A stretch of DNA of 64,000 nucleotides. It comes from Cristatella mucedo (lineage: Eukaryota > Bryozoa > Phylactolaemata > Cristatellidae). The stretch lies in contig WPIO01000119.1 in the NCBI GenBank assembly GCA_009760855.2, positions 676,001 to 740,000 of the forward strand, written 5' to 3'. Positions 19,901-40,974 of this stretch are shown here, in pieces (the stretch's first letter is position 1; every line of letters starts with the position of its first letter). The position numbers and the translations under genes were made by a program. The notes under the pieces were generated by a model. That model did no database searches. It was not told the DNA's origin and worked only from the letters and a program-made list of their open reading frames with translations.

Positions 19901-22759
19901 GGCTCACAGCCTTCTTTTGCACATATGGACAAGTATGCTGCTTATTAGATTTGTATCTCTACCGAAAACCGGTTGAACTTTAAGTCAATCTCATGTTACC
20001 TAATTATTTTTCGGTTAAGGCATGACTGCTTGCGTAATTAGCTTTGTTTAACTGAGCCTCTGGTAATTGTTAAGCTCAGTTTTAAGCATGCATCTGCAGA
20101 CTTAGATCAGACCGTTGGCAGCTACTGCTAGCAATACTACTACTTTTGCTAGCAATGCAGTGGCTACTCTCAACTGGTCAAATAGTATTTGAGGAGTGGC
20201 CGTCATCTAATTTATAATTGGCACAATTTTTTCCGTAATGTGTAACCTGTTACGGCATGCTATTAAAGCATTTCTGATGTGCCGTATGCGTTTTTGCTGT
20301 TTTTGGAAGCCAATGGCATTGAAATGTCGGTGAGTTTTTAGATAACTAGTAGGCATGCTTAAAGGAAAGCTGTTTGTATTCGTAACCCTCGGCTGTGCAG
20401 ATAGTTACAAACATATTGATTCTAAGCTGAAAACTGTATGGCACAGCTATTTGTAGTTACGGAAGCAATGCTGTATTGTGCTCACTCCATCTTTCTTTTA
20501 CCTTCACAATCACTTATCCTTGCTTGTCATTGCAGTGTTGACCCTAGCACTACTTACAACTGGACCGTGAATGGTTTCCCACCATCCAATAACTATGTTG
20601 TGAATGGGGCTACTATGACACTACAAAATTATAGGTTTAGCCCTGGAATTTATACAGTAGGGCAATACGATGGCAACTATGAATGCACTGCCAAAAACTC
20701 ACAAGGCACTGCAGTCTCAAGTCCAGCTGATGTACGGGTTGGAGGTATGTAGCATTCTTTGCATAATCCTGCTTTTTCAGCTTTGAGAGGGATAAACAAT
20801 TTCTTATAGGTGTACACAATTCCTGGCAACACCAGTTATGCAGTTGGGTCTGTCCTAGATGTCTTATATACGTTTTATCATGCTTCCTGCTGAAATGGAC
20901 GAACTGCTATTTTGCTTTGACATTGAAGGTCATTGACGGTCACCATTGCCACCATGAGCTTGCATGTACACATTCTTGTCACAGTAATGAGTGATGAGCT
21001 GCTGGCCGTGTTGCAAGCTGAAGCTGTGTGTTTGGAAGCCGGGTTTCACTCTTTGATATCTTCTCAGGAGAGGCAGGTCACCTATACATGCTTGCCCTGC
21101 TTTTTCTAGTGTTGGCAGGTACACCATATGCTGTAATGCTATCCCTGAACCTAACTACAGCTGGGAATGTGCTTTTATGCAAGAGTTATTTCCTTTTCCT
21201 TGCACATTGCCATTGTTTGCTTAACATGTACTGTAGAAACTCAGTTCAAGACACCGGGTATTTACTTTTAGCGACCTCATTAGTCTTGGCTTAACAGTAC
21301 ATACGCATTTCACCATTATTAAGGACTGTGTTAATGAATTCAGACATTATTACTACACGAATAGCTATTGCGATTTCAACTCATAATAAAGATCATGTGC
21401 AACCGCATTCGCAGGAATCGATATCTTGAAACAAAGCAGCTTATTAAAGGTTGTCATAAAACCGCAACTTGTCTAATCTGCCAAGCATGTGACTTTAATT
21501 GTCAATTAATTTAATCAATTGCTAATTTAAAACATTTAATTAATTACTTTAGTTGTTTTTTGTGCTTTCCATTCTCGAATCACCCAAATCGTGTACAATC
21601 AGATAATTGTTTTGAACAGTCAGCATTATTAATGTTGCAGCATTTTATCACTGGTTTGACATGTTTTGTGAGTGTCGTGGTATTATATATGCAACTAATT
21701 TTTGTTTTTTTTCTAGCCTTTATAGGTACATATTTACCTACTAGTGCACCAGCAGCAGTACCAATGTCGTTCAGCCCTGGCTCCACTCTGATTCTGCCAT
21801 GCAACTCGAGCGGTCCTTTGACATACTTGCCTTCGATCTGGAGCCTTTCTCCAGCATTCGTCTGGTTTGGGACATTAATTAATGCTCCACCTGGTACCTT
21901 TGGACGTGTTGAACTTGTGTATACTCAGGACTCTCGCTATACCTTTAACGATTACGGTAAGCATTGTTTCATGCTATTCAAATCCTGAAATTACCGAGGA
22001 ACTAGACATGTATAGATAGGGTTATTGCTGTCTGTTTTTTGTCTTACATGGCCCCAGCTAAAACTATTTTTTCCTGACATATGAGTATTTTTTACTTTTA
22101 AAATCTCAATTAACTAAATTCTGAATTTGCAGAGATTAGTTACCCAACAAGTTGAATAATAAGAAATGTGTCTTCATTTTTATTCAAGCAATGCCACAAT
22201 GGCTAAGTGGTATGTAAGCTAGTGAGCGTTCGATGTATTTTTAATCCTATGCAGCTGCCGGTGTACTTCTGAAAGCCAACATACTCCATCTCAGGAATAG
22301 GAAAACTGAAAAATATAGTTTAGTTAGGACAGTCATGAAGGACATTGGTAGCCTTTACAAAAAAAGGAAAGAGTATCTGGAACTGCAGCAGAGAAGTTGC
22401 ATTAGGTTATTGCTGATGTGGGCTTCGATGTCTAGGACTAGCAGAGCTCTTGTGGCTAGCAGTCTGTATTCAATAGAAATAACCAGCTGACATTGGTCCA
22501 GCAATACAGCTAGATGTGAAGAAGCCAATCTACATATAGTCTTGGTAGGAGCTTGCTCTGTAACCTTCGATCAAACATGTGCCGTCGTAGCTCCTTCAGC
22601 TGGCTTAATTTCTTGAAAGTTTTGACCATCCTGCAGCTTTCCCACTGTCGGCTGGTTTCGCATTAGACTACTCAATAATGGAGGACAAAGGTCCGGTCTA
22701 GACCAAACAAGCTTCAAGCAGTCAAAGAGGACTCCTGTACAATGGGTCCATGATGATCA

Positions 22760-25800: not shown

Positions 25801-28800
25801 GGAAGTATGGGCCGTAGTCGGCAGCAGGAGATCTGGGGCCATTTCATGGGAGATCTCCTTGTCAGAAACGGTCATGCACATGCTGCTTTGGCTATGACAC
25901 GAGCTTAATGAGCCGGCGATGTGCAATTTGGTTTGCAGAAATCCTTGCTACGTTTGAATTTTTTAATTATAATTATAATTCATTTGTATAGCGCCCCAAG
26001 AGAACCTATGTTCTATTCAGGCGCTTCACATATGCATCGGGCTCGAGCCGGCGACCTCAGACAGACCTTGGTCGGGGCAAGCACCTTAACCGCTGGGCCA
26101 AACCAGCTTGGTTTGAAAGCTTTATATGAGTGCTTAGTGTGGCAGAGCTAGTCGGGTAAAAGCTCGACAGTTTTTTCTTTAAGCAGGTGGTACGCTGTTG
26201 TGCAGGTAAATGAGCTAGTGCAAATGAGATGAGCTTACTTAGCTTGGTCATAATGCCAGTCAATCAGCAGTCAGGTTGGAGTAACTCAACTGTAATCTGA
26301 GATGGCAGAAGCCACGAACTAGTCCAGGACGCTTGGGTTGAATGACACCTGTAGTGTAAAGCTATATAGTTAGTGGCTGCTTAAATAGCTTCTGGAAGCA
26401 AGAGGCATCAATTCTCATCCCAGTGGAAGCTCCCCCCTGGAAGCACAGGTTGCCAATTTTTTGTTGTAAAATGCTGAATGACATCTGCCATGAAAATGAA
26501 TTAGGAAGAGAAGCTGTCTTGCCAAAAATTTATGTGCAAACAAGAGATTTTTACAATAAAAAACTTATACACGTAAATGTCTCCTATGTCCTGTATTTTT
26601 TTCTTAAGATTTTGCATTCATTTTTCAGTAGTTTCTATAGTCGAAAATAGTTTCTTAGTTACTCATCGCAGATTTCGATAACTTTCCTAATCTTGCACAA
26701 TGCAAGAGCACCTGTTGCATTTTCAGCTCTCGATATTTATGTATTTATAAGGCTGTTGCATGTGATCTGCCATGGTGCTAGATATTCTGAATTTTGTCGT
26801 TAAAACCGAATACAAACAGGTAAGCCCCGGTTAGTAACCTCTTGCCACATCCAATAATCGTTTATTCAGCCGTTGTGTAGCCCTGTAATCCGACTACCAG
26901 CTTTAAACCTTAATCATCTGTGTTGTTGCACTCGTTTGTAAAGATGATACCATGCATGTGATTAAGCTATGCTTATCTTGTAAAGCATTTGGGTAGAAGA
27001 ATTAAATATAGTGGTGCTAAACAGATGACTTTCGAATTCTTTTACGGTTTATTATAAGTTGTACTGTATCTTAAAAGGTTTTCATAAAGTCTTCGCACAA
27101 AACGCCACTTGTTTGGCCACCACTTTTAATTTTTTTATCTGTGAAAACTGCTAGCTTTTTCACAGAGCAATCACTATTTGCTCCCCTTTGTATTAGCTAG
27201 AGACGATTCTTGGCACTGATAAATAACTTAACTGATACGTGTTGTAGGTACATTATTCATTCGAAATAGCACAGCTGATCAGTTCAGCAGTTTTAAGTCT
27301 ATTTCTTGCTACATTAAAGAGAGTAGCTTTTCTTCTGAACTGGCAGTGGGGGTTTACAACATGCAACCATCTTCGACGCCTGGCACTCTAACCACTGCTC
27401 CCACTTTACTGTACAAGTCACCTGATTTGACTGTGCCCGAAGGAGCATCGTTTTTCCTCAGTTGCATATTTGATGAGTAAGTTTGCAAATGTGTGTTTTT
27501 GTGTGTAGATGTGCTTGTAGTAATGCATACACGTACTTTATAGTCTTGCTCTGCCCCTTAAGCTGACGTCTACCTGGTGCCGGCTTCCGGCTTTTAACGT
27601 AGCATATAGACACAATACGTAAATCATTTATGCGAAATATTTAATATATACATATCTGTCTCTCATTAAAAATGTTGCTGATGGTGCAAAAAAGTTAATA
27701 AGTTCGGTCATTCAGTGTTTGTAGTGAACTTTCTGATTTGCCCCTGCATAGTGTCAATTTGCCTCTTATTGGGCTCTGGTGCAATATTTAGCCAAGGGTA
27801 CTTGAGCCAGCAAAAAAGCTTATTACGAGTCGTAGCAGGATTAGAGTCAGACCTCGTACAGCACTCAAAACTGGTACAGCACTCAAAAATATGCTCTACG
27901 GGATTTAGATCAGGTGGCTGACTCGGCCAACTTACGACTCTGACCCGTGATTGAGCAAACATCTTTCGTCGGAGGCCTTTGCTGTGTGCTTGCGGTAATT
28001 GACTTTATGCCAAACATAATCATTCTTCAGGGGAGCTCTAGCTTTTGGAATTTCGGCATTTCTAAACAGTTCTATGTGCCAATGGTGGTCCATGTTTCCA
28101 TCAAAAACGTGCAGCACTACCACAGCAGAACAGCAAAGGCAAATACAAGCCAGGACACTGCTGCCATCGATTTTAACTGTTGGATAATAATAACAATAAT
28201 AATTCCCTTGATAAAGCGCCCTCAGAGAACTTAATCTCTCTCTCTAGGCGCTTTACATTTGCTTTAAAGTGAAATGCAGTTGAATGGTAAGTAAAATCAT
28301 GCTTGAAAAACAAACGAAATGAATAATATGGTTAGGGGTGACATGCAAAGGGTCAGCATGCAAATGTGGCTAGTGGCAGCATGCACAGTGTCAGCACGCA
28401 TAAGCACATCAAGGACGAATCACAGGGGCCCACTAAATGCTGTCCTAAATAGGTGTGTTTTTAGGTTCTTTTTAAATGTGGTCAGGTCAGGGGATGCTCT
28501 GATGCAGGTCGGGAGAGAGTTCCAGGCTTTGTGAGCATATGAACTAAATGCACGGTCTCCAAAGGATTTAAGGCTTGTACGAGGTATTTCTAGACTGTTG
28601 TATTCCGAAAAGCATGTGATACGATGCTGGCCTGATTGGGTGGTATATCTGACAGATAGGCTGGAGCCATAGAATGAAGGGACCTAAAAGAGAGGGACAA
28701 AACCTTGAAGTCAATCAGTTGCTTAACTGATAGCCAGTGCAGGTCGGCGAGAAGTGGAGTAATGTGGCAACTGCAAAGCTCACGACAGACAAGCCTAGCT

Positions 28801-31800
28801 GCAGAGTTTTGCAATAGCTGCAATCGCCTGATCGCACATGCTGGTAGGCCAGTAAGCAGTGAATTGCAGAAGTCGAGACGGGATGTCACGAATGCATGGA
28901 CCAACTTGGACGTGGTATCTTTATCTAAACAAGCCCGAATTTTAGCAATGTTATGAAGCTGAAAATATGCGGATTTGACTGTGGAACTGATATGGTCGTC
29001 TAACGAGAGGTTGCTTTTGAATATGACACATAGATTTTGAGCTGATTCAACTGGAGATATGCTGGCAGAGCCAATTTTGAGAGTCAGCCTTTCAAATCTC
29101 TGGATCACACTGGGTTTGCCCATAACTAGCAAGTTAGTTTTATCATCATTGCACAACAGTCAGGGTAATACAACGCACCATTTCGCAGACTCATGTTCTC
29201 CTTTTATAATATGGTAGACAATGAGTTCGACAACACTACTACTAATAATAAGAATAATAATAACAATACATTTCATATAGCACCACCATATAACTCAATA
29301 TCTTTCTAAGCACTGTACAACTACATTATGTTTAGAGGTAGTATGCTCAATAAAACCAAAAATAACATGGTTAGGGGTGATATGCACACGGTCAGCATGC
29401 AAGTATGGTTAGTAGCAGCATGCGCACTGTCAGCATGCATAATTACATGATGGTTGAATCCCAGGGATCCACGAAATGCTGTGGCCCGTGCCTTAAGTTC
29501 ATAAGCTCCCAAAGCCGTGAATTCACTTCCCACTTGTGTCACGATGCTCCCTGACTTGACCACATTTAAAATGAAACTAAAACGCATCTATTTGTAACAG
29601 CATTTAGTGGGTCCCTGTGATAACTAGAAGTTTTGTTCAAGTAGAGTTAAACTCACATGAGCAATTGTAGCCTCTGTGTCTTAGCGCAGGAGGTAAGGTG
29701 CTGGCTTTTCACGATACGGGTTGTGGGTTCGAATCCGGGGATACACAAATCAGCCAGCCGAATAGTACTTGCTATTTGGAACTCGTGCTTCCGGTAAGTA
29801 GGCATGGCTTCGCGAAAAGTGGTAGCTGACACCTCGGAACCAGTTACAGGCCTTCTTTAGCATCAGTGCATTATGCTATTCTATCAAGCTGCTACTCTAT
29901 CAATACCGAAGATTACAGTACCCTGCAACTTTTTAGGCAAATATTGTACTTATAGTTGAAAACAGAAGCCTCCAACACTGCTCAATAATATTTTGACATC
30001 TTAGGAGCATATATTGCGTAATGCTAGACCTCTTGCTTTATAAACAATCTGCCCCACTTTGATTCTAGGTGACTTTACTGATTCAGCCATGAATAGTCTG
30101 CATGAGCTTGACAAGAGTCTACACCAGTTTCACTGAATAAGATCAACCACTGAGAAATGCATATTTTGATCACTTTGCTGCTAGTTTACATTTATCCGTA
30201 CAAATTCCGTGTGGGTTTTCAATTAGGTGCCTGACTGTGGCAGCTCATTGGGGTATTAGGAGTCGGTTAATCTGGTTCTCTGTTCTACTTACACATGTTT
30301 TCCTTATTTAGCATTGAGTTATTCCTCGAATGCCTCTCTGTTATCGCATTGCTATTCTTGCAATTGTAACTCATTTTCCGAAGCACAGGCCTCTGAGCTT
30401 AGGAAAATGAGATTCGTCGTACTCTCTCGGACTTAATTCAATATAGTTGACTAGTGTTTGTGTGTGTACTTGTTTGCGTTCGTGCATGTGTGCACGTATT
30501 TTGTCTCTAACTCTCCTTCACTCTCTCACTGACTATTTATCTTTTTTTTACTGGCTATTTATTCGGCGTACATGGATATGATTGAACCTGTCTTGTGTTT
30601 CTGCTTTTTAGTCAAGGCGGTGCAACCGCTTTGGTAAATTGGAACAACTATGTTGCTAATCGGCAAGATGGTGGAGCTAGGATACAAATAATTAATGCCG
30701 ACGTCAATCTTCCATCATTATGGACCTGCACTTATGTCAGTTCAAGTGGTAAAAGTGCAACCGGTACGATTACAGTGACAGTACTGCCTTATCCTGAAAT
30801 ATCAGGCCTGCAGGATACAATTGTCACGACTGGATCTGTTGCCGTGTTTACTTGCCGAGTGCGTCCTCTGAGAGCAGCTACATTCAAGTGGTACAAGAAT
30901 GGTATGGACGTTCCGCTATTGAAGTATGTCTCTGCTTTAAGTGCCGATGGTTTTTATTCCAGTAAGTTTATTATATTTGAGTTTGGCAAGATTATTAATT
31001 TTTTTTCTTAGCGTGTTCAGTCAAGACTTTGACTTTGATGTATCAGTGCTGAAACAGGTGTGTCGTAACACGGGCTTATGCTAGCTTAGCATGATAGCTG
31101 AATTCCACAACGCAACTTCCTTATTAGGAGGTAAAGCAGTATTAACACAGTGCCACATGTGCACCGAGCAGTTCGTTTAATCGGCTACTATCGTGAGCAT
31201 GCCGAAATTAGTCATAAAATTCCTACCATCCTTCTCGAAATGCAATTGAGACCTAACATGAGATGTAGGTGAGCATTTTCCTATGGCAAGTTCCTGTGGC
31301 TTGCTGCCCTTCCGTTGCGAGCAGCTCAGTGCCGAGATGTGGCTCAAATATGTCAAGTGTTGTCATCTAGTAACCACATGATTTGGTTGTTGCCAAGTCT
31401 TTTTACTAGCTTTGCAGGTCCGGCAGAAAAGTTTGTCGTTTGGGCATGCTTCTTTGAAGTATTAATACCTCGGCATGTCATCAGTGAGACAGCTCCTGAA
31501 ATATTCGTAAAGTTTCTTTGGTCATTATGTGTACAGTTTTTTCTGTACAAGAGGTGCTCAATGAAACTATTGGGATTTCCTCATTGCTAAACTAGATTTG
31601 CTTTTGTTTCCAAACAGAACCACACCTACATTTGCTATTAAAATCTGGTTTATTTAGGATATCATATCCTTTGCATGGAAGCTGAAAACTCAACTGCGAG
31701 TGCTTCAGCTTTGCACGGCTGTCAAACAGGCAAACGATATTATATTGGGTAAAATTTGACGATGCTCTTTGCTGGAAACGTTTCCCGAAGCTTAGCTCAA

Positions 31801-34800
31801 CACAGCCTCCATCTGACTGCTGACCTTGATCGACCCTGGAGCCTAATCAAACACAAGAACGACAATAACAATCTCAGACCATGGCCCCGGGTGTTTATGT
31901 GACCTGTTTACCTGATCGGACTCCAGTCTTTAATAAGAGAGAGGCTCTGCCTTTTCAAGCTTATTTTAAAGTGCGAAACGCTCAAGACTTGTATGGCCTG
32001 TTTTACCTTAACTTGCCAATTAATTGCGTGTTAACTATGTAGATGTGTAGGCTGAAGCTTGTCAAAGCTGCCGAGCCCAGAGGTTATCCAGCTTCTTTGG
32101 ATTGTCCATTGCAGTCATTGCTGGAACTTAAGGAAGATTGCTCTTCAGAAAGATTACTCGTCCAAATACAGTTGTTTTGTCAGCTATAACAGTTGCTCGA
32201 GACTAGGATCGTCTGTTTGATTAAGTCTTATGGTCTTTGTTTTGTTAAGAGCAACATAGAATTTACTGCCTTGACTTGGCATAAGTTAATGTTCAGCCGT
32301 GAGTATAATTTTAGGCTGTTACACTTTGTAGTTGAATTTGCTCGACATGCTCTTTTTATTGTAGCTGCGTACAGAATCCTATTAGATTGACTGCAAACGA
32401 TGACCATGCTCCCAAGTATAATACCCCTTCGCTAATTTGTTATGTAGTTTAAGATTTGCATCAAGCATTTAGCATATTAAGGTAAATTTCTAGAAAATGC
32501 TGGGAAAATTCTGTCCAGCAATCTTACGTTTGTTTAGGGTACCTTGCAAAAAGACAAACATGTTATAAATGGTATCACAAGTTTTGTCGATTTCTATATC
32601 ACAGGAAAAAATTATTATTACAACCATGTCTAACTAGAAAATTAACCGGAAGAAACATCTACAAATATAATGTCCGATCGTCAGTTCTTTTATAAATTTT
32701 GAAAACTCTTTTGTACTTCAGCAGAGGTCTACTTTTAGCATGCCTACTCTGACCCAACTTGATACGTCGGCCGGGTGGCTGTGTTTTGCTGTGACCTGAG
32801 CGATTGTCATTTACTTTCCTTGTTTCGTTTTGTTTCTCTGATCTTTTACTTTTCTTTTAGCGTTTAGTATGCTTCAGGCATTAAGCTTTCCTTGGTAGCC
32901 GCGTCTTCGACCCGGTAATAGTAGAATAAATTAATTTATCAGTGGAGTTTCGACAACGGCTTTTTTTTAAATAAATTTGGTAAACGACCCTGTTAGCACT
33001 TCTGCACGTATCAGCTCCGCTCTCATGTCTTGGTCTTTGAGAATTTCAACACGGGGACAGACAGTTAAAGTGAAACCTTTGCAGAGGTGTGTTGGTTGGT
33101 CTACGCCTGTATTCCTCCCATTTCCGTGAGGTAGCATAAAGTCTAGATAGCTGCTATAGCACAGCTGTGTTTCGGTTGTTTCTATAAACACAGCCGGAGA
33201 GTTAAAATGTCTCATATCAATCTCCATAATTTTTTTTTCATGGCTGCTTTGGTCATAGTGACTTAAGCCATTGGGCAAGGGCTTAATTTTTTGCTGCGAT
33301 CATGTCTGTTATAATAAACTCAACTAAGTTTTCCTTAATTTTTATGTATTTCGAATGTTCGTAATTTCATTGCATATGAGCCGTGATCGAACGCCCATAT
33401 GAATGCCTACCTGCTGCATTCTCAAAAGTTGATACCGAAGGTTTTTTATTAAATGTATTTTTTAGCCCTTACAATCTCCAATGTTGACAAAGCAGACATT
33501 AGCGTCATCACATGTACTGCTTCTAACACTTTGGCGATTCGCAAGAAAGGTGTCAGGCTAATAGTCACAGGTATGTGGTTATCGTTGGTTTTATTTTGAA
33601 CTTACATACTTCTGTTTAGTTTTTAACCTGAGCATGTACACTTGGTTTCCTTTTACCTCCAGATCCGACAACTGTCAGTATTGCTGCCATTCTGGACAAC
33701 CCGGTTGCAGGCAAGCCTGGTAACTTCCCGGTAAACCGTAATACGACGACAATAAGATTTTTATGTGATTACACCTTGGATTCTAGTATCTCCGGGGAGA
33801 AAGTGGTGTGGCAAATGCATGCATATTCAGGTGACATCGATGAGAACACACTGGCACCAGATTTTGGCTTGCAACTATCTTCTGTCGAAACGCAAACATC
33901 CCAGAAGCAGTCCGCCTTGACTATTCAGTATACTCCGGAGAGCTCCCGGAAGATCTTGGGGAGTGTCAACTGTTCAGTGTTGTACCAAATTCTAGGCCAA
34001 TCCTTTAGGGCAGGATCAGGAAATTCCGGTCAAATAACCGTCACAGAAAGTGAGTACTACTATGTGTGTGCAATGATTTTTCTGTGTATTTTCTTCGGTA
34101 GAATGGCTAGTAATACTCTTAGCTTGTTTTGTAGTACCTCCACCATTAGAGATTACCACTGTCGCACAGTTTCCTTACTGGATTATCGGTGTGATCGTTG
34201 CTGCACTTTTTCTCATTCTTCTGGTATTCCTCATCATCTTTTGCGTTCAGCGGAATAAAGGAGAGCAATACTATGGTGAGTTTGTCTTTAACATCTGTAT
34301 TGTAAAGTTATTCATGTGTTATTAGCCTACAGTGTCTTTCGAAAATGCCTATTTCTTTTTCTGGCTTTTGCTAACTTCACTTGATTTAATAACATGGTTC
34401 TGGTTTCTGCTTGCAATGCATAGCTTTGCCTTGGCTACATGTAAAGCTGTATATTCATATCACGGCTTTGCTTGCTACAGTTGGAAAAAAGGAAATGGAC
34501 GCTGGTCATGATCCCAAAGAAGACAGGCCTACGTGGCAGGACTTCAACCGTCCGTGAGTTGGATTTCTACTTTGTATATTGGATGTTTGATCTTAATTTG
34601 TATTATTTTTATGGGCTGCGTGTCTTAGTAATCAAAATGAGTGTCTGACACAAATTGAGTCAAACAGCCAATAGGCAGGGAGAGGCAACACTTAAAAATT
34701 TTGGCCTCAGTGGAACAGGATAAGGTAAGCTGTTTTGGTTGTAGCTAGTGGACCTCTGCACTTGTTCGGATGATGCGACTAATCCGGTTTTTCACGTGGT

Positions 34801-37800
34801 GTATGTCAATGCTCCTTCTGTGTGGTGTAAAACACTCGTATGAGAGAACAAATGATATTGGCTGGCTTGCTGCCGGTTTCTCTTTATTTGATAGTAAATA
34901 GCTTTCATATTTACAGGCTAACATGCTGGACTTTGTAGTTGTTAAATGCATATGCTGACCTCTTCCTTCCATGTGTAATCACTTAATTCTAGTACCTTAG
35001 TAAAGCTCTGCTCATATATTTATCTTAAATTGAACTGCCAGCAGAAAGATTCTGGGTAGTTAGTTTCTGCTCGATATTATCATGCCTGCTAATCTTGCAA
35101 ATGGATCGTCAATCCAAGCTTTCTGGTGCAGCTTTCCACCCTAGTGAGTGACAGCTGTCTGCAATATTGCTGCCCTCCTCAATCAGTGGTGCAGCCCCTG
35201 TTCACAGCATGCTCATTTGTTAGTGCAAACAGACCGAGCTGCCTCCAATCCTAAGATAAAGTGGCTTTTTTCTGCCGTGCCATATGATTGGCCTTATTGC
35301 ATAGGATCTCCTTGCTTGCTTCGCCTGGCACACTTGTAAACTGCAGCTTCTTCGGGATGATTTAGGATTGAGTAAAAGCTATTTGTACTATTTCTGTGTC
35401 TGGTGCCCGAATAGATAGAGGAGACTGCCCTGGTTAGAGAAGCTGTCGAATGGAACAGGGTGTCGTCAGCTGTATCTTCATGTCCACTGGACCCGACTGT
35501 ATGCCACAGCAAATGAGCAATCACTTGATTTTGCAGATTGTGTATCATGCATTTGCTGCTGCATTGGCAAACTTAGCTGCTCTGCACTGCATCCTCCTGT
35601 AAATTGGGACGGCAGGTGGCCAGCAGCACCCTTGCTGTTGGCTTTGTCAGCCGGACATTCACTGTTTTGTGAACTGTTTTGTGCAAGAGTGAGCCTGTGT
35701 TCCCAAACAGATGGAACACTTGTAGGCAACTGTACTCAGCAACGTGTACTTACCAACTCCAGTGCAATTTAACCAAGGTGTTGGAGGGGCCACCCAGCCT
35801 AGTTGGGGAGCCAGGCTGACAACTACATTGACGACAACATATATACACGTGGCACTGCTATAGGCTGGTGTACGCACTCTTAACATACGATCACTACAGA
35901 ACAAACTGATCATGCAGGGAAAGTATTTTCACTGCCTGCTGGCCATCGATTGCTTGTGGCCTGTCTCTGACAGCTCGACATGACCCTGCAGTGGTCCACT
36001 CGGCTGTTGGGATGTTATGAAAGCTCTGCACTCAGCTCTGCTTCAACTTGAATATTTGGCTAGTGGAGTGAACGGTACGAGGTAATATTTCCTCTGAATG
36101 AAACACTGAAACACTTTTAGGGTCAAAGCCTTAAGCATCGATAAAATGCCCCCTGGCATACGTGCATTGCAATGATTTGAGCGATATGGTCGGCCACGTT
36201 GGAGGACGACCACGATTTGTAGGCACGAAGCATCTACAGCCCTCGTGTAGCTTTCCTGCTTTATTTAATAATAATAATACTAATACATTTGTAGTGCACC
36301 CTCAGAGAGCTAAATCTCTATCTAGGCACTTTAAAGATACCGTATTGAAAGCATTACCAAGTGATTGGTGGTATCAGCAGCACACAGCAGATACGTGCAC
36401 ACGAAAAACCAACCTAAAAGACCCACCAAATAGAGTAATGAACAGGTGCATTCGCACTCACTGTGGTGAAATTCCCTTGGTATGTGCTTCCGAATTCAAC
36501 GTCTATCGTTAGCATGTAGGCATATACTGTAGCTAACACATTATTATGAATACTTCTTAGTACCTCAGATCTGTGTGCTCGGTCCATTTCTTTACTCAGT
36601 TTATACTCTCCCTCTTGCTGATGCGATCGCCAAGCACAATCTATATTTTTTGCCTATGCAGATGACACTGAATTGCACCATTGCTTTGATCCACCCCAGC
36701 CCACCATCATGTCAAATTCTCTATGCACCCTTGCTGCATGTACTGATGGCATCCGCACATGGATTTCAGCTAACTTTCTTAAGTTGAGTGACGACAAAAT
36801 TAATCGATTATTTATTGGCAAAACAAGTGTGATTCAGAAATTAGAAAACCTTACGCTCAAAGTTGGATCTGCCAGCATACTTTGCATTCAATTTCTACAC
36901 AATCTAGGTGTCCTGTTCCAAAGTGACCTTTATTTAGACAAACACATATCCACTATCAAGTCTGCATACTTTCAGCTCCATAAAATTACTAAAATTCGGG
37001 CATGTTTAGTCAGGGATAATACGTCGAACATAGTCCATGCATTTGCGACATCGTATTTGAACTTCTGCGACTCACTGCTTGCGGGTCCCTACATTTGCAA
37101 TAAGGTGCTTGCAGTTGGTGCAAAAACTCGGCAGCTAGGCTCATCTGTCGTTAGCAGTGAAATTGCGATATTACACCACTTCTCGCCGACCTGCACTGGC
37201 TCCCAATTAAGCAGCTCATTGACTTCAAAGTTCTGACACTTAATTTCTTTTTAAGTCCCTCAATTTTCTGGCTCCAGTCTACCTACCGGAACTACTCCCT
37301 CACCAGGCGAAGAATCGTACGACTGGCTTTTGTGACTCGAATAGTTTAGCCATACCTCGTACTAACGTCAAACCGCAGGAGAACGCACCTTTAGTTCATA
37401 TGCTCCCAAAGCCTGGAACTCACTACCGACACGTGTCACAGCGTCCCCTGACATGACGATGTTTAAAAAGAAGCTTAAACGCACGTGTATGTTACAGCAT
37501 TTGGTGGGTCGCTTTGATTCATCCTTCATCCACAAGGTCGCGGGTTTGAATCCTGTGGTGGGCGATCCTTTATTGCTGCTTCAAGTGGTGGTGATAGCCG
37601 TAAAGGCTCATCTGTCGCTATACAAGAAAAGAGGCTGATTAATCGTCTAGTATTTATTTCGTGTTCATGTACCTGCTGCATGCTACTTGTGGATGTGACC
37701 AGCCTAACAATGGCAATGATTTCTCTGTAGCGTCTGTAAAATGCATATAGAGAGATTCAGTTCTCTGGGGACGCTATATAAATGTAATAGTAATACTATT

Positions 37801-40800
37801 TGAGAACTGTGTATTGTTGTCGATTAGGCTCCTTATCTGCCTTCTGATTGCTTCGGGAGGCTTTAATGATTTGGCACATTGCCGACAAAAGTCAAGCTGC
37901 AGTGAGATGGCTGGTTGTTGTTGTGTAGCTCTCATTCATATTCCCTAGCTCTGTATATCATATTTTCTGTAGCTCTGGTAGATATGTTCATGGAGCATGT
38001 CTCCTGCTGACAGACTCGTCACTGTTGTCAAGTCATGTGACTCGTTGCATGTCAAAAAGCACCACACATGTACAACGGGTTTTCCTACTTAATATCTAGC
38101 TGCAGTTTATCTGTGATGTAAAGATTGCCCACTCTAGCTGCGACAAGAAATACACTAGAGTCCATAGAGGAGTCTCTATAGAGGAGTCTCTATAGAGGAG
38201 TCTCTATGGACTTTGGCGGATTTTTCTGCATCCCCTTTGCTCGGTTTTCACGTCCTAGTCAGGGCTCAGCTGGCCGAATAGGGCAAGAGTCTTGGTGTCC
38301 TGAAGGACTTTCCCAAGCACCGTCAGACGAAGTGAGATGGATATGTGAGTTGGTTTGCAAGTTTGCCAATGCCGAGTTTTTTACTCTTGTGTTGCTACTG
38401 CATGCTTGTTGGGTCAGCTGCTGCTAGTCGTAATGGCTCACTAGGTAAGGCGTTGCTTTTCACGACCTGGGCTCCTAGGTTGTCAGTTCGAATGCTGTGG
38501 TGGGCGATCCTTTATCGCCACTGCAAGCATTGGTGATCGCCGTCAAGGCTCTTCTGTCGCCATACAAAAAGAGGCGGTTAAATCAGCTAGCATTTTTTAT
38601 CTTAGGCTTTGCCTCCTCGCCCACCCTTTCCACCTTCGAGCATTATTGGGGTTCGGACAGCCAAGAAGGCATCTAAAGTACCTGGTGCCTATGTGCTATA
38701 TAGATCTACTGTGAATCGGCAAAATGTCCACTCAAATGATTAAAAATGAGCTTTAACCCTAGCTAATTGTGCATGAGCAGAGAAAGTACCATATCCGAAG
38801 TGGCTTCAAAAAGATATCCCATCGCCGTAATGTCATGTGGCCTTAAAAAACAATGTCTAGTTAACTGATGTCGATGTAGCAAATTGATTTGGCTTGCCGG
38901 CAATCGGCTGTGTCAGTTCCATTGGCATGTCCCTGTGGTAGTGACAAAGTCCAGTCATCAACTAACTTCTTTAAGTTGGCAATATTTGTTCAGGGGCCCA
39001 CTTCCACCTTCATATAGCTTTTCAACCTTGATTAATTAATTGTGCGCACTGCTGAAACATTAAAAGCTGTTATTGGTCGGGGAAAGTAGTTTCTTGTTTT
39101 TAAATGTTTTTGCTGCACTGTGACATGATACCCAACAGAAAAAAAAATTCCTTGCATGTGTTTATTGACACGTGCAAGCCGCCTTCACAGCAGCTACAAC
39201 TGTCGCAAGAAGCAGTTGATGCAAAAATTAGTTGGTATTCTGTTAGGCCTAATCTGACTGAGGTCGTGGGCTCGAGCTCCGAGGCATATGTGAAGCACCT
39301 GAATAGAGATTAAGCTCTCTTGGGGTGATATATAAAAAAATTATATTCAATATTTAATAATCTGTCTGCATGTATGCATGCATGCATACCTGCCAGCTAG
39401 TGTGTGCTTATAGCAAACAAAATGGTTTCAAAACTTTCATTTATTTGTACACATATAAATGTGCTCAAAATTACCTAATTTTTCTTGCATTTTTTTATAC
39501 TTAGCCTAGTGACTCTCTGTTATGCATTGTTTTACTTTACAATTGCTTAGGCCCATGGAAAGTTTCATAGAATTTTAATTAAAAAAAGCGTTTCCATAGT
39601 GCCCTAAGAGAGCTAAATATCAAATCAGGCACTTCACATTTGCCACGGGCTCTATGCAGCGAACTCGGCCTTAAATACATTCACGTTTACTTTGGTCGTT
39701 AAAAGTAAGCAGCCGAACCACTGACCCAAACCAGACTAGGCCATGCATAATGAGTAGGCACTTACGTTTAAGCTAGCCAACGACTTCTTAGACGTTGTTT
39801 CCATTGCACGTGGCTTCTCTGACCTCTATTTTCATCGTCAAGTGTGTGCATCCTAATAATGGAGTTCGTCAGTTGCAATACTGGTCTTGGCCGTGCACAT
39901 TGGCCTAGTTAGCCCTACTGTTACAGAGCCCAGAATGGAGACCACTAGATTGACATCGTCTTTGACATCCCTGGTTAAGTTTTGCTTGCAGAGACTGTCA
40001 GTCTCCCATAACCGTGCACCATTCTTCACTAGAGTCAGAAACTGCATGCTGATCGCAAGTCTCATTTGTGGGGTGGTTATTCTCTCTTAAGTTTTCTTAC
40101 TTATAAAAAATATTGACTCCTCTGGCCTACTCTCCCTCTGCATTCGAACCGCTTAGCTTTGCATCTTGCCCACCTCGAACCTTATGGAGACCACGTCTTT
40201 TGTTTCATGAGCTTAAACTCACTCTTAACTTTTCTATCGGCAAATATCCCGACATCCACTTGGGGAGATGCTGTATAAGTGGCATTTGGGCTTAATCGGA
40301 GTCAGTCGGGATGTTTTGGTTATGTTGGGACTTTCAATTGTAAGGTGCTGCACGGGCTTCTGTCTTGCTGGTGGTTTGGCCTAGCCAAGCTATTATGCTC
40401 CCCCTCCGACCTAGGTCTGGCCGAGGTCGTGGGCACGAGCTCCTTGGCGTAGGTGACGCTTTTATAAACATCGGTTTCTCATAGGGTACTATGCAATGAA
40501 ATTATATATTGTTTTTGTATGGTAAGATCTAAGGGACCGTTGTATTCTGCTAGCATTTTGAGAAAATCTTGTGTCGGACTTTGTGGATTTGATGTTGAAG
40601 TCTTGCAGTCACCAGTAACAGTTTAGACTTCTCATCATTTCTTCACAGTCTAACAATCTACCAGTTTCGTAATTTTGTCACGATCCCATAAATGACATTT
40701 GTTGAAAATGTGGACCAGTTGAAGTTAGCAAATTGCAAGCATTGGCCAAGGCTTTATTGTGGTCACCCTTATTTTCTTGACCAGTGATCAAGATCCAGTG

Positions 40801-40974
40801 AAAGGCAGCCAGGCATCTCTTGAAATGGAAGGAGAGAGGCCAATTGGCTCGGACTCAGGAAGCATGGATGAGTATGGGGTCGACACCAAAACTGGCAAGT
40901 TTAATGAGGATGGTTCATTCATAGGCAAATATGGTCCCAAAGGCCAACGGTCTGGAGCTACTGGTCATGTTTAA
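1933..40974 (+). CDS. L1-family Ig cell-adhesion receptor (spliced, 5 Ig + TM + FIGQY-type tail), whole gene
   Basis: This is a hand-built gene model. The coding exons are 1933-1999, one of 11521-11632 or 12473-12584, 20536-20744, 21717-21956, 27248-27476, 30612-30961, 33466-33570, 33663-34049, 34135-34275, 34481-34553 and 40785-40974. They total 2103 bp (700 codons plus stop). Every intron is GT..AG and every junction keeps phase. The predicted product has a leader, Ig1 (about 24-128), Ig2 (131-255), Ig3 (260-335), Ig4 (338-437), Ig5 (438-566), a TM helix (582-604) and a cytoplasmic tail (605-700). The tail blocks RNKG (606-609), GSDSGSMDEYG (659-669) and FNEDGSFIGKY (677-687) follow the order seen in L1CAM, neurofascin and neuroglian. 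In those proteins the last block binds ankyrin and links adhesion to the spectrin skeleton. Homophilic or heterophilic adhesion at the cell surface is inferred from the family. No FNIII domain is present. The family call is strong; the leader exon is the weakest part of the model. Confidence 0.88.
2448..2530 (-). repeat. LINE-A/SINE-B type 3' tail, minus strand
   Basis: An AAT microsatellite is followed by TTTGTATAGCACC and then the complement of the tail stem-loop (AAATCTCTGTCTAGGTG). The body of the element is not recognisable. The rest of 2000-3090 is intron without visible coding sequence. Confidence 0.5.
3090..3516 (+). mobile_element. LINE-A reverse transcriptase fragment, 5' piece of a split copy
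   Basis: It aligns by eye with the better copy at 9585-10735: a polymerase region with LPLADV and a mutated catalytic box (Y-T-D-D at 3256-3267). It contains stops and frameshifts. It breaks off in the phrase that in other copies reads CTAGGTGTCATGTT and resumes near 6010, with LINE-B sequence between. It lies in intron 1 and is a dead copy. Confidence 0.7.
3517..6008 (+). mobile_element. LINE-B copy inserted into LINE-A (degenerate reverse transcriptase)
   Basis: About 2.5 kb of a non-LTR retrotransposon with many stops. Recognisable in order are a linker region (about 3850-4200), an RT region with NY..ISLL-like and QYGF-like segments (about 4470-4620), YADD (4970-4981), and the C-terminal ARLV...SP..KELGWL segment (about 5440-5520). 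The copy ends in the LINE-B 3' terminus near 5960-5990. Clade assignment to the L2/CR1 group is inferred from these motifs. It is non-functional. Confidence 0.7.
6009..6502 (+). mobile_element. LINE-A, middle piece of the split copy
   Basis: It resumes the LINE-A text interrupted at 3516 (AGTGACC, then ACAACATCATCTCCACA). It continues through the region ending LTSRFCRSL-like to GCTCCCAAAGCCTGGAA, where a second LINE-B copy in the opposite direction breaks it again. Confidence 0.7.
6503..7389 (-). mobile_element. LINE-B 3' part, minus strand, inserted into LINE-A
   Basis: The minus strand reads ARNLGVVFDSCLSFKSF, then LDYCNSLLAGLPKKAIM, then HGLAPSYLAELLHQFQP and SFSSAGPRLWNSLPQFL. These are typical of the C-terminus of L2/CR1-like reverse transcriptases. 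One frameshift separates two long open pieces. The 3' terminus (at 6503 on the + strand) matches the LINE-B ends at 25585 and 54545. Confidence 0.75.
7390..8330 (+). mobile_element. LINE-A 3' end, followed by a second overlapping LINE-A 3' end
   Basis: 7390-7745 is the rest of the split copy: CTCCCGACCTGCGTCAG, the 3' UTR with the tandem GTGCATG motifs, the stem-loop tail (TGCCTAGAAAGAGATTGA), and an ATT microsatellite. A second, more decayed LINE-A 3' part starts at about 7742. It has its own tail at about 8255-8325, ending in a TTAT-rich stretch. Confidence 0.65.
8331..9584. other. Intron 1 sequence without recognised features
   Basis: AT-rich intron. No exon with splice signals and Ig-like coding, no RNA gene and no clear repeat was seen. 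The part after 9430 may belong to the following LINE-A copy but is too decayed to say. Confidence 0.3.
9585..10735 (+). mobile_element. LINE-A copy with polymerase box and complete 3' end
   Basis: The best + strand LINE-A copy. It contains NLPLADVTAKQNLGFHF, then the YADD box (9651-9662), then ESARNLGVMFQSDLPLDDHI, SRLDFSNSLLTGLPA-like and DLHWLPVKQQIDFK segments. A 3' UTR follows, then the stem-loop tail (AAGCGCCTAGAAAGAGATT) and a TTA-rich end. At least two frameshifts are present. The 5' end is truncated. It lies in intron 1, just upstream of the exon duplication. Confidence 0.8.
11521..11632 (+). CDS. Exon 2A: first half of Ig1 (alternative copy A)
   Basis: A 112-bp exon between the acceptor TCTTTTTAAG and the donor AA/GTCAGT. 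It enters in phase 1 and leaves in phase 2. It encodes TVYAPILTRLPGNSQVKL, then LFVTSLFSGFVLACQPDA, giving the A and B strands of an Ig domain and its first cysteine. The phase-2 exit just after the B strand is the same as at the end of exon 5 (Ig3). It joins in frame to exon 3 at 20536, which supplies the tryptophan and the second cysteine. A paralogous copy of equal length lies at 12473-12584. Confidence 0.78.
12240..12385 (+). mobile_element. LINE-A 3' tail inserted in the second duplication unit
   Basis: A very 5'-truncated insertion: CAGGCATGATTTTACTTAC, the stem-loop tail (GAGCCTAGAAAGAGATTAA) and an (ATT)n end. It is absent from the equivalent place in the first unit (about 11430), which dates it after the duplication. 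Confidence 0.75.
12473..12584 (+). CDS. Exon 2B: first half of Ig1 (alternative copy B)
   Basis: This exon is 112 bp, the same length as copy A. The acceptor is AATTTTTAG and the donor AA/GTAAGT, closer to consensus than copy A's. It encodes TVYPPIIMSLQVNGQVNP, then FVVTSLTSDVVFVCQPDA. By my count 21 of 37 residues match copy A, including the invariant CQPDA end. Phases are also 1 in and 2 out, so splicing A to B would shift the frame. Only one copy can be used per mRNA if both are functional. It is not known whether both are expressed. Confidence 0.78.
12771..15289. other. Intron between exons 2B and 3; LINE-A-type tail at 13350-13440
   Basis: No coding exon recognised. A minus-strand LINE-A-type tail lies at about 13350-13440 (CTTTTTCTAGGCACTTTAC). 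A weak SINE-A-like stretch (about 13740-13905, including GATGGTGATAGCCGG) may be an old + strand copy, but its boxes are not clear. Confidence 0.3.
15290..15345 (+). repeat. Near-perfect hairpin: 25-bp stem, 6-nt loop
   Basis: The arms 15295-15314 and 15321-15340 are exact reverse complements over 20 bp (GCTGTTTAAGGCCAGAGCAC and its complement), with the loop ATTCTC. Counting one A:A mismatch, the stem reaches 15290-15345. It lies in the long intron before exon 3, so it would be transcribed with the gene. It could be a small-RNA precursor, the end of a small inverted-repeat element, or chance. No matching second copy was noticed in the window. Confidence 0.7.
15346..16861. other. Intron sequence without recognised features
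   Basis: No exon, RNA gene or recognisable repeat. An open frame at 15473-15760 encodes a hydrophobic stretch but lacks splice signals and Ig features and is probably chance. Confidence 0.3.
16862..17645 (+). mobile_element. LINE-A 3' part
   Basis: It starts in the middle of the RT C-terminal region (CTACTTTCAGCTACATAACA) and continues through SRLDFCNSMLTGLPA and QLQLVQNLAARLV segments. It ends with the 3' UTR and tail (GCGCCTAGATAGAGATCGA, then a TTAT-rich end). It is 5'-truncated and frameshifted. Confidence 0.75.
17646..18494. other. Intron sequence without recognised features
   Basis: AT-rich sequence with no visible coding exon or repeat family. Confidence 0.3.
18495..18660 (-). mobile_element. 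SINE-A copy (tRNA-derived)
   Basis: On the minus strand it shows an A-box-like region, the B box GGTTCGAATCT, and the family body GGGCGATCCTTCATTCCCA. The end phrase GGCTGTTAA also follows. It matches the + strand SINE-A copies at 38425 and 47105. Confidence 0.65.
18661..20535. other. Intron sequence; LINE-A 3' UTR fragment at 19415-19535 (minus)
   Basis: A decayed LINE-A 3' UTR piece (ATGCACAGCATCAGCACTC, ATAAGCACACTAAGGACAA) lies at about 19415-19535, in minus orientation. The rest shows no exon or known repeat. The region around 19780-19850 contains a loosely repeated CCAGT.TGGGA.CTTC.GAGG motif. Confidence 0.4.
20536..20744 (+). CDS. Exon 3: second half of Ig1
   Basis: The acceptor is a long pyrimidine tract ending in TTGCAG, and the donor is GGAG/GTATGT. 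Entry is phase 2, matching exons 2A and 2B, and exit is phase 1. It encodes VDPSTTYNWTVNG with the core tryptophan, then DGNYECTAKNSQGTAVSS with the second cysteine. The G strand follows, ending at DVRVG. This is an ordinary I-set pattern and contains an NWT glycosylation site. The reading frame stays open upstream of the acceptor and happens to contain a Cys pair. An alternative acceptor at 20456 (phase 1) would give a single-exon domain without exon 2. The pyrimidine tract and the phase match favour 20536. Confidence 0.82.
21717..21956 (+). CDS. Exon 4: first two-thirds of Ig2
   Basis: Entry and exit are both phase 1; the donor is TACG/GTAAGC. It encodes the A and B strands with LILPCNSSG, a long C-C' region, and ends at TFNDYG. 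The LPCN around the first cysteine and the NDYG before the next strand resemble Ig2 of L1-family proteins. Two in-phase acceptors lie 9 bp apart, ending at 21716 (TTTCTAG) and 21725 (TTTATAG). The second would drop three residues (A-F-I) and join smoothly at G-T-Y. The NSS is a possible N-glycosylation site. Confidence 0.82.
22762..22802 (+). repeat. (TC)n microsatellite in intron 4
   Basis: About 20 uninterrupted TC units, followed directly by GCAG. The rest of intron 4 up to 23200 has no recognised exon. On the sense strand the run looks like an ideal polypyrimidine tract before an AG. Confidence 0.9.
23205..23335 (-). mobile_element. SINE-B copy
   Basis: On the minus strand it begins CTGGTTTGGCCAAGTGG and GGTGCTCGCCCCGACC, an A-box-bearing tRNA-like head. 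A B-box-like region and the tail (CATATGTGAGGCACTTGAA) follow. It matches SINE-B at 58423. Confidence 0.65.
23405..23510 (-). mobile_element. SINE-A head fragment
   Basis: The minus strand shows an A-box-like TAAGGCAGTTGCTTTTCAC and the B box GTTCGAACCC, close to the SINE-A head. The body is poorly kept. Confidence 0.5.
23511..25169. other. Intron 4 sequence without recognised features
   Basis: No exon, RNA gene or clear repeat was recognised. Some stretches may be very old repeat remains. Confidence 0.3.
25170..25275 (+). mobile_element. LINE-B 3' terminus
   Basis: A short, 5'-truncated piece. AAGTCGCTTAGGCTGTGAG and AAAACTCTCCTGTGTAAAA lead to GGAGTCTACAGACGGAGAT, the LINE-B end seen on the minus strand at 6503 and 25585. 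Confidence 0.55.
25450..25575 (+). mobile_element. SINE-B 3' part
   Basis: It starts inside the head (GGCCGAGGTTAAGTATGGA) and runs through CATATATGTGAAGCACCTG and the tail (AGAGCATGAGTTCTCTTAT) to an ATTTATGT-rich end. It sits next to the LINE-B fragment at 25585. Confidence 0.6.
25585..25900 (-). mobile_element. LINE-B 3' fragment
   Basis: It matches the minus-strand LINE-B ends at 6503 and 54545: CTGTCGGTAACCCCACAAA, then AGCCTAAGTGGCAGTATG and CATTCGGTACCAATATGAC. It is decayed, with no open frame. Confidence 0.55.
25965..26112 (-). mobile_element. SINE-B copy
   Basis: An ATT-rich end (at left), the tail stem-loop in complement (ATAGCGCCCCAAGAGAACC), the B-box complement GGGCTCGAGCC, and the head ending AACCAGCTTGG. 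One of the better SINE-B copies, in intron 4. Confidence 0.75.
26113..27247. other. Intron 4 sequence without recognised features
   Basis: No exon or repeat recognised. The 26420-26650 part has an open frame of 75 codons without splice signals or familiar motifs. Confidence 0.3.
27248..27476 (+). CDS. Exon 5: end of Ig2 and start of Ig3
   Basis: The acceptor is GTTGTAG and the donor GA/GTAAGT. Entry is phase 1 and exit phase 2. The first part completes Ig2: TLFIRNSTADQF then SFKSISCYIKES, with the second cysteine and an NST sequon. A Ser/Thr/Pro-rich linker follows (MQPSSTPGTLTTAPT). The A and B strands of Ig3 come next, ending in VPEGASFFLSCIFD. The exon therefore crosses a domain boundary, and both of its introns fall inside Ig domains. 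Confidence 0.85.
27705..28160 (-). pseudogene. Tc1/mariner-type transposase remnant
   Basis: The minus strand reads WPSQPPDLNPVEHIFECC, the conserved C-terminal segment of Tc1/mariner transposases that precedes the third catalytic acidic residue. Upstream in the neighbouring frame are KHTAKA (the position of the usual D-x-x-KHT box, with the Asp lost) and FDGNMDHHWHIELFRNAE. At least one frameshift separates the two parts. A direct 17-bp duplication containing GTACAGCACTCAAAA (about 27857-27890) extends the C-terminus. No terminal inverted repeats were seen. Dead DNA-transposon fragment in intron 5. Confidence 0.7.
28190..29165 (-). mobile_element. LINE-A 3' part with long open frame
   Basis: The minus strand has an uninterrupted frame of 188 codons (28590-29156) with KTNLLVMGKPSVIQRFE, ESAQNLCVIFKSNLSLD, FVTSRLDFCNSLLTGLP and DLHWLSVKQLIDFKVL. 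This is the C-terminus of an L2/CR1-like reverse transcriptase. The 3' UTR and stem-loop tail lie at 28205-28260, with a TTATTA microsatellite at the end. It is one of the youngest-looking copies here. It lies in intron 5, antisense to the gene. Confidence 0.85.
29245..29630 (-). mobile_element. LINE-A 3' UTR fragment
   Basis: An ATA/ATT-rich end, a decayed tail (ACTCAATATCTTTCTAAGC), then the 3' UTR landmarks (GGGGTGATATGCACACGGT) and the end of the coding region (CACATTTAAAATGAAACT). Confidence 0.65.
29665..29760 (+). mobile_element. tRNA-derived SINE head (SINE-A-like)
   Basis: It contains an A box (TAGCGCAGGAGGTAAGGTG) and a perfect B box (GGTTCGAATCC). The D-arm and part of the acceptor stem can pair. 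The anticodon stem does not pair, so this is a SINE head rather than a tRNA gene. The following body differs from the other SINE-A copies. Confidence 0.55.
30612..30961 (+). CDS. Exon 6: end of Ig3 and most of Ig4
   Basis: The acceptor is CTTTTTAG and the donor CCA/GTAAGT. Entry is phase 2 and exit phase 1. It finishes Ig3 with ALVNWNNYVANR (core Trp) and LPSLWTCTYVSSSG (second Cys), ending TGTITVTVLPYPEI. Ig4 begins with TTGSVAVFTCRVRP and ATFKWYKNG, a textbook I-set B-C region. The exon stops before the E-F strands, which lie in exon 7. Confidence 0.9.
30962..33465. other. Intron 6, no recognised features
   Basis: A 2.5-kb intron inside Ig4. No further exon, RNA gene or clear repeat family was seen. 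The longest open frames (31315-31590 on +, 32967-33278 on -) show no familiar motif. Confidence 0.35.
33466..33570 (+). CDS. Exon 7: end of Ig4
   Basis: A small exon of 105 bp, phase 1 at both ends. It encodes LTISNVDKADISVITCTASN, the E-F strand signature of an I-set domain with its second cysteine, then the G strand ending GVRLIVT. Acceptor ATTTTTTAG, donor CACAG/GTATGT. Only 92 bp of intron separates it from exon 8. Confidence 0.9.
33663..34049 (+). CDS. Exon 8: Ig5, membrane-proximal Ig-like domain
   Basis: A 387-bp exon, phase 1 at both ends, that encodes one divergent Ig-like domain. Cysteine lies in IRFLCDY, tryptophan in EKVVWQM, and the second cysteine in GSVNCSV; the last strand is GQITVTE. 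The usual Tyr two residues before the second Cys is missing. NTT and NCS are possible glycosylation sites. The Cys-Trp-Cys layout supports Ig rather than fibronectin III. In canonical L1 proteins FNIII repeats would stand at this membrane-proximal position. Confidence 0.82.
34135..34275 (+). CDS. Exon 9: transmembrane helix
   Basis: Phase 1 at both ends, acceptor TTTTGTAG, donor TATG/GTGAGT. It encodes a short Pro-rich stalk (PPPLEITTVAQFPY), a 23-residue hydrophobic helix from WIIGVIV to LIIFCV, and then the stop-transfer and membrane-proximal block QRNKGEQYY. The block RNKG..Y right after the helix is a conserved feature of the L1 family tail, where it takes part in FERM-protein binding. 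The intron before it is 85 bp, so nothing lies between Ig5 and this exon. Confidence 0.92.
34481..34553 (+). CDS. Exon 10: proximal cytoplasmic tail
   Basis: A 73-bp exon, phase 1 in and phase 2 out, with acceptor TTGCTACAG and donor CC/GTGAGT. It encodes VGKKEMDAGHDPKED followed by RPTWQDFNR. It continues the juxtamembrane block of exon 9 with a Lys/Glu/Asp-rich segment, like the K-E-rich segment after RNKG..Y in L1CAM and relatives. A 6.2-kb repeat-filled intron follows. Confidence 0.85.
34554..36260. other. Intron 10, first part, no recognised features
   Basis: No exon or known repeat. Several short open frames on the minus strand overlap each other and look like chance. Confidence 0.3.
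36265..36480 (-). mobile_element. LINE-A 3' end fragment
   Basis: An AATAAT microsatellite, then the tail in complement (TAAATCTCTATCTAGGCAC) and a decayed 3' UTR. It is 5'-truncated. Confidence 0.55.
36548..37795 (+). mobile_element. LINE-A copy interrupted by a SINE-A
   Basis: It contains the polymerase box region (CTATGCAGATGACACTGAA, about 36655), an open frame of 187 codons (36673-37236) with KLSDDKINRLFIGKTSV and HISTIKSAYFQLHKITK, and the following C-terminal part with frameshifts. The 3' UTR is broken at about 37528 by a SINE-A. The LINE tail resumes after it (GTAAAATGCATATAGAGAG, about 37735-37795), ending in a TAAT-rich stretch. Confidence 0.75.
37528..37660 (+). mobile_element. 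SINE-A inserted in LINE-A 3' UTR
   Basis: It carries the B box GGTTTGAATCC and the family body GGGCGATCCTTTATTGCTG, ATAGCCGTAAAGGCTCATC and CTATACAAGAAAAGAGGCT, ending TCTAGTATTTATTT. Most of the head is missing. Confidence 0.7.
38160..38212 (+). repeat. Short tandem palindromic repeat, three 16-bp units
   Basis: Three units of AGAGGAGTCTCTAT(AG) stand in a row, flanked by TCCATAG on the left and CTATGGA on the right. The whole block is close to its own reverse complement. It lies in intron 10. Confidence 0.85.
38425..38602 (+). mobile_element. SINE-A, near full length
   Basis: tRNA-like head with A box (CTAGGTAAGGCGTTGCTTT) and B box (GTTCGAATGCT), then the body (GGGCGATCCTTTATCGCCA, TCTTCTGTCGCCATACAAA). 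It ends GCTAGCATTTTTT. It serves as a reference copy for the family in this window. Confidence 0.8.
39225..39355 (+). mobile_element. SINE-B 3' part
   Basis: TCTGACTGAGGTCGTGGGC, a B-box-like region, CATATGTGAAGCACCTGAA, and a tail AGAGATTAAGCTCTCTTGG leading into an ATT-rich end. The head is partly lost. Confidence 0.7.
39575..39748 (-). mobile_element. SINE-B copy
   Basis: AT-rich end, the tail in complement (TAGTGCCCTAAGAGAGCTA), CACTTCACATTTGCCACGG, and the head ending ACCCAAACCAG. An extra segment lies between the boxes. Confidence 0.65.
40360..40515 (+). mobile_element. SINE-B copy just upstream of exon 11
   Basis: The head has GGTGGTTTGGCCTAGCCAA, then GGTCTGGCCGAGGTCGTGG and CGTAGGTGACGCTTTTATA. 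The tail (GGTTTCTCATAGGGTACTA) is decayed. It lies about 270 bp before the acceptor of exon 11. Confidence 0.65.
40785..40974 (+). CDS. Exon 11: distal cytoplasmic tail with ankyrin-binding FIGKY motif
   Basis: The acceptor is TTCTTGACCAG, entry is phase 2, and the stop codon TAA is at 40972-40974. It encodes GSQASLEMEGERPIGSD, then SGSMDEYGVDTKTGK, then FNEDGSFIGKYGPK and a C-terminus ending TGHV. The order S-x-x-SL, P-I/L-GSD, acidic-Tyr-Gly and FNEDGSFIGxY is the same as in vertebrate L1-family tails. The motif is FIGKY (40918-40932) instead of FIGQY, with the regulatory tyrosine kept. The last four residues do not form a class I PDZ ligand. Confidence 0.92.

Follow-up and report, generated by a model that had tools for sequence, protein, structure and literature searches.

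A probable L1-type receptor paralogue with five Ig domains and no FNIII spacer

Members of the L1 family of cell adhesion molecules carry six Ig domains and four or five fibronectin III (FNIII) domains, and their FNIII repeats have been studied mainly through artificial deletion. Nematode LAD-2 and the short form of SAX-7 are L1 proteins that vary from this plan in domain number or in the tail, while the contactins and the IgLON proteins are GPI-anchored and have no L1 tail. PMC9239158, which deals with the nematode protein Bma-LAD-2, describes the four N-terminal Ig domains of neurofascin and other members as forming a horseshoe that is required for adhesion.

The window analysed here is a stretch of 64,000 nucleotides (C21:676001-740000), and the genome searched, this one genome only, comprises 572 Mb in 688 contigs. 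On its + strand the window holds a gene modelled in ten exons (12473-40974), with nine GT-AG introns that are all in phase; the frame stays open for 675 codons up to a stop, and its first codon includes a G that is assumed to come from a missing upstream exon. The encoded architecture consists of five Ig-type domains, one transmembrane (TM) segment and an L1-type tail. Two tandem copies lie on the same contig, copy A at 577-603 kb and copy C at 786-822 kb, with the window gene as copy B; both keep every exon length and splice site, except that copy C has lost 2 nt from its final exon. This conservation bears out the exons between 20536 and 40974 that a first-pass annotation of the sequence had proposed. 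With one genome compared, the gene is likely to be a lineage-specific L1-type receptor paralogue that has five Ig domains, kept the L1 TM and cytoplasmic exons and is without the FNIII spacer.

The gene begins further upstream than the position, 20536, from which it had been read. The first half of Ig domain 1 is encoded 8 kb before that point by exon Ig1a (12473-12584, +; acceptor phase 1, donor phase 2), which was found through its B-strand pattern and phase-2 donor and whose junctions are common to copies A and C. The second half lies in exon Ig1b (20536-20744, +), placed by junction comparison. An alternative in which Ig1 was stretched upstream as a single exon ('LILACHC...') was rejected, as all five copies that were aligned, that of the window among them, have an AG before 20536, and the C209 copy ceases to align well in that extension. 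A diverged duplicate of Ig1a (11521-11632, +), possibly an alternative or a decayed exon, has a weak donor (GTCAGT) and matches Ig1a at 55% by tblastn; the duplication is a 202-nt direct repeat with 952-nt spacing and 74% identity. In the DNA of copies A and C that was searched, one Ig1a only was seen. A scan upstream of Ig1 for an ATG with a hydrophobic stretch gave no signal peptide, a less strict one turned up two candidates, neither of them convincing, and no start codon was found there; since no signal-peptide exon was recognised upstream, the 5' end of the model is regarded as incomplete.

The remaining ectodomain exons, all on the + strand, follow in order. Exon Ig2a (21726-21956), the first half of Ig2, is recognised from its Cys/Trp pattern and has no Pfam match; an alternative acceptor is possible about 10 nt upstream. 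The exon at 27248-27476, placed by junction comparison, is real as first read, with its content now corrected to the end of Ig2 plus the start of Ig3; in its best 25-codon stretch all changed codons are synonymous (eight of eight against copy C, three of three against copy A). Junction comparison also places Ig3b/Ig4a (30612-30961) and, together with the I-set match of Ig4, the end of Ig4 in exon Ig4b (33466-33570), after which Ig5 occupies a whole exon with phase 1-1 boundaries (33663-34049). The introns contain three reverse-transcriptase-like frames, recognised by eye (16861-17130, +; 28590-29159, -; 36622-37236, +), which belong to one type of non-LTR retrotransposon. Beyond the gene there is a 314-aa open frame (43229-44173, -), and no Rfam RNA families were found in the window.

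The five Ig domains that had been proposed stand on different kinds of evidence. Ig4 is clear by Pfam (I-set, 1.1e-10). The joined Ig1 matches Ig_2 at 5.3e-5 and 23.8 bits, under the curated cut-off of 27 bits; a previous version that began at the wrong place scored 27.9 bits, just over the cut-off, and was replaced by the corrected one. Searched singly against Pfam, Ig2, Ig3 and Ig5 matched no family at E<=10, and Ig2 and Ig3 are recognised from their Cys-Trp-Cys pattern only. For Ig5, an alignment of 11 sequences has C35, W50 and C104 invariant, and the best of five AlphaFold models made from the 11 aligned copies has a pLDDT of 81.0 (the others 80.6 to 41.8); its best structural matches are antibody and T-cell-receptor V domains (Z 11.5 and below), so that Ig5 is predicted to fold as a V-like Ig domain. 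The expectation that the ectodomain would match Ig models and no FNIII model held clearly for Ig4, weakly for Ig1 and also for the absence of FNIII, and Ig2, Ig3 and Ig5 fell outside any family.

No fn3 domain was found by Pfam in the 675-aa model, and the FNIII repeats that stand between the Ig domains and the TM segment in L1 proteins are absent. Ig5 and the TM exon are separated by an intron of only 85 bp (34050-34134, +), which has no room for FNIII, as the first-pass annotation had observed. A genome-wide fn3 search, in which 150 of 284 candidates were scored, placed none on C21 among the matches listed (at least 149), although a search of this kind misses split domains, since the FNIII pieces of the C665 gene described below are absent from its matches too. 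Large arrays of FNIII matches occur elsewhere in the genome, at C111:10691619-10736487 and C653:8425227-8644150. Five Ig domains are modelled against six in the L1 family, and with the 5' end incomplete a further N-terminal domain is possible. Given five rather than six Ig domains and no FNIII, the protein is therefore considered an L1-derived variant and not a standard member.

The exon at 34135-34275 (+) encodes a single TM segment, read by eye, and ends in the basic juxtamembrane RNKGEQYY, which has the RNKG..Y form. It is followed by tail exon 1 (34481-34553, +), supported by its junctions and the Bravo_FIGEY match and encoding VGKKEMDAGHDPKEDRPTWQDFNRP when the split codons at its ends are included, and by tail exon 2 with the stop (40785-40974, +), likewise covered by Bravo_FIGEY. 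The blocks RNKG..Y, GSDSGSMDEYG and FNEDGSFIGKY occur in the order that had been noted, and the proposed kinship of the tail with the Pfam Bravo_FIGEY model is a clear match: E 8.5e-16 and 59.3 bits in the full 675-aa model, against a cut-off of 23.8, with positions 2-85 of the model's 86 covered. Searched by itself, the tail reaches 1.9e-17. The predicted ankyrin motif, for which the family form is FIG(Q/E/A)Y, reads FIGKY in the window copy and FIGQY in copy A. Its core FNEDGSFIGKY (40900-40932, +), in tail exon 2, is the same as the neurofascin segment of 7xce (neurofascin, ankyrin-3) except for a change from Q to K, and SMDEYGVDTKTGKFNEDGSFIGKYG in the window tail aligns, though weakly, to the neurofascin part of that structure over a short stretch (E 0.43).

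The Bravo_FIGEY cut-off is passed at three places in the genome: copy A, the window and C665:683962. Upstream of its tail, the C665 gene has Ig pieces at 646-658 kb, with one at 635 kb as a possible addition, then FNIII-like pieces at 659.7, 667-668, 670.7-671.2, 679 and 682.6 kb, with a TM segment next. When pieces were joined by eye, FNIII scores were 8.8e-7 (659.7 kb), 3.6e-14 (671 kb) and a weak 0.0052 (679 plus 682.6 kb), an earlier, badly joined version of this last piece having given no family; the pieces at 667-668 kb were recognised by motif only. C665 resembles the window gene in having a FIGEY-type motif (FIQAY) and in its two tail introns, of phase 1 between TM and tail-1 and phase 2 between tail-1 and tail-2, as in the window gene and at places that correspond by eye. 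It differs in its FNIII pieces and in a longer, more diverged tail C-terminus. A tblastn of the window Ig domains against C665:644001-687000 gave no good match (best Ig E 0.055).

At the level of exons, a protein search found 64 matches in the genome. Close copies beyond A, B and C lie on C209, C571, C86 and at another place on C21, some of them perhaps alternative haplotypes, and diverged relatives are found on C376, C66, C653 and C441, with a few more on C21. In members on C376 and C66 that were read by eye from Ig5 to TM, no FNIII-like frame was seen between the two. Four of these C376/C66 members carry RN(K/R)G..Y after the TM segment, and in three the next exon ends W.D(F/Y)SRP. Tail exon 2 begins as in the window in two copies on C376, with DQDPLKG or DQEPLRG; if the exon is spliced there, a stop precedes the ankyrin motif. 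A C376 juxtamembrane/tail-1 piece scores 0.0042 against Bravo_FIGEY, under the cut-off. Searching the whole genome with the FIGEY exon at E<=10 gave four matches, all on C21, of which two are fragments of copy C; its start in the two C376 copies was found by local search. The copy on C571 and two on C209 share the ectodomain exons examined, with divergence beginning within the TM exon, which may reflect an alternative tail or decay. The layout of Ig, TM and RN(K/R)G..Y shared by the C376/C66 members, together with the start of tail exon 2 retained in two of the C376 copies, suggests that the family began with an L1 tail, which was then probably lost or changed several times.

The kinship of the head is harder to read, and it is here that the main alternative arises. 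In a phmmer search of the ectodomain against PDB, titin came first and neurofascin second; contactin-5 and contactin-2 aligned across Ig1-Ig4 in a single stretch (contactin-5 over residues 27-400), and neurofascin Ig1-Ig2 aligned in register. A three-sequence profile against PDB again put titin first, followed by an IgLON protein with the best single stretch (Ig3-Ig4). The window head thus has weak similarity to contactins over Ig1-Ig4 and to IgLON proteins over Ig3-Ig4, and with titin at the top of both PDB searches and an IgLON protein second in the profile, descent of the head from L1 is unproven. An unrelated multi-Ig receptor might have taken the L1 TM exon and two tail exons through a phase-1 intron; the same working would be expected, but the head would not be an L1 head. 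The V-like Ig5 with phase 1-1 introns on both sides would suit such a capture, as would a head whose similarity to L1 and contactins is weak and is equalled by other Ig families, but the single-stretch contactin alignments and the in-register match of neurofascin at Ig1 speak against it, and it is judged a possible but rather unlikely origin. Loss of FNIII, one of the two origins suggested at first pass, is clearly favoured over capture, because the tail phases are shared with C665, the tail looks ancestral and the head aligns with contactins and neurofascin, even if weakly; it also fits better than an ancestral form. With phase-1 exon boundaries, Ig/FNIII modules next to the membrane could have been lost without disturbing the frame.

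Comparison of the three tandem copies indicates that the gene structure is not due to chance and is under constraint. In exons the window copy is 95.2% identical to A and 92.5% to C; when every aligned base is counted, exonic ones too, the values are 88.3% and 80.4%, respectively. Nei-Gojobori dN/dS is 0.35 for A-B and 0.49 for B-C, the latter including the frameshifted last exon of C. In the TM exon, all 46 whole codons are free of nonsynonymous changes among A, B and C, and the split codon ahead of them is Ile in B but Val in the other two copies. Of all exons, Ig1a evolves fastest when A is compared with B, with 10 nonsynonymous and three synonymous changes (dN/dS 1.09; 0.49 for B-C and 0.78 for A-C), changes so few that the ratio is no test of positive selection. 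Divergence is also patchy, as gene conversion would produce: B and C are identical across 199 bp of the TM exon and its flanks, and A and B are 99.3% identical across Ig2a and its flanks. The tail exon of copy C (C21:821675-821858) has a frameshift before the ankyrin motif, and the motif is lost. The family may comprise three tail types, namely one predicted to be ankyrin-coupled (A, B), one truncated before the motif (C and two copies on C376) and possibly another TM/tail type (C209, C571). A tentative and rather doubtful extension of these observations is that closely similar Ig heads, encoded in a tandem array subject to gene conversion and paired with three tail types, form a recognition-receptor family on an L1 chassis, like paired receptors, serving self/non-self or cell-type recognition.

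The same array raises the question of whether the window gene is itself a decaying, non-functional copy in repeat-rich surroundings. Its start codon was not found, copy C has its frameshifted tail exon, C653 and C209 members have stops in the matched stretches and one C209 copy has no AG before the TM exon; however, the 675 open codons, the nine intact introns, the dN/dS of 0.35 against copy A and the unchanged 46 TM codons make decay improbable. The window gene is real and probably encodes a functional FNIII-less receptor with an L1 tail.

That it is instead an ancestral short L1 form retained from before the gain of FNIII, the other origin first proposed, is very improbable: the window tail does fit the L1 model better than that of the FNIII-bearing gene (64.6 against 35.1 bits for C665), but an Ig-FNIII-TM gene with a FIGEY-type motif and matching tail intron phases is present in the same genome, FNIII-bearing L1 proteins occur in fly, worm and vertebrates, and mitochondrial gene order (genes named by eye) suggests a lophotrochozoan, a group inside the animals with canonical L1 proteins.

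The mitochondrial contig is C688, 21 kb long (20 kb read), with genes on both strands. It carries nad1-nad6-cob-nad4L-nad4-nad5 on one strand in this order, a block we take to be that of molluscs, phoronids and their relatives, which points to a lophotrochozoan placement. One reading frame occurs three times, once inverted, with the direct copies 2.1 kb apart. TGA encodes Trp, and AGR codons fall at sites that are presumably Ser in other animals. A tRNA lies where the nad5 frame ends; on the contig Rfam recognised one tRNA and ARAGORN none.

For the FNIII-less, L1-derived receptor, the likeliest working, by analogy with known L1 proteins, is that the Ig head mediates adhesion and the tail anchors the receptor to ankyrin and spectrin. 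Expression of the receptor is assumed here, and its adhesion and ankyrin binding are predictions. The Ig head would bind a partner on another cell, the FIGEY tail would tie the receptor to the ankyrin-spectrin cortex, and the tail tyrosine might act as a switch, as it does in known L1 proteins. The gap bridged by a receptor of this kind, which has no FNIII, would be shorter. Matches to ZU5 and UPA lie in ankyrin order on C38 and likewise on C47. C497, the best ZU5 match, was dropped as a candidate ankyrin partner, as by eye it reads as a ZO-type protein. The head is reused across a small family in which the ankyrin motif is kept (A, B) or lost (C, two C376 copies), or the TM segment and tail are changed.

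Evolution seemingly supplies receptors that lack FNIII but have a nearly intact L1 tail, beside siblings without the ankyrin motif, which suggests that a receptor family that expands and rearranges can accommodate such a tail. With an FNIII-bearing gene in the same genome, the contribution of the FNIII spacer to adhesion is directly testable, as is ankyrin coupling with a short, Ig-only head. Among the matches listed in a search of literature titles and abstract openings, no Ig-only protein with an L1 tail was found, though absence is unproven. With the L1-family cell adhesion molecules (L1CAM, neurofascin, NrCAM, CHL1 and Drosophila neuroglian), the window gene has in common the match to the tail model, the core FNEDGSFIG.Y, a multi-Ig N-terminus and a single TM segment; it departs from them in having no FNIII, in its five modelled Ig domains in place of six and in belonging to a multi-copy tandem family. 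Even the variant nematode proteins LAD-2 and the short form of SAX-7 keep their FNIII domains, whereas in the window gene the FNIII block is absent.
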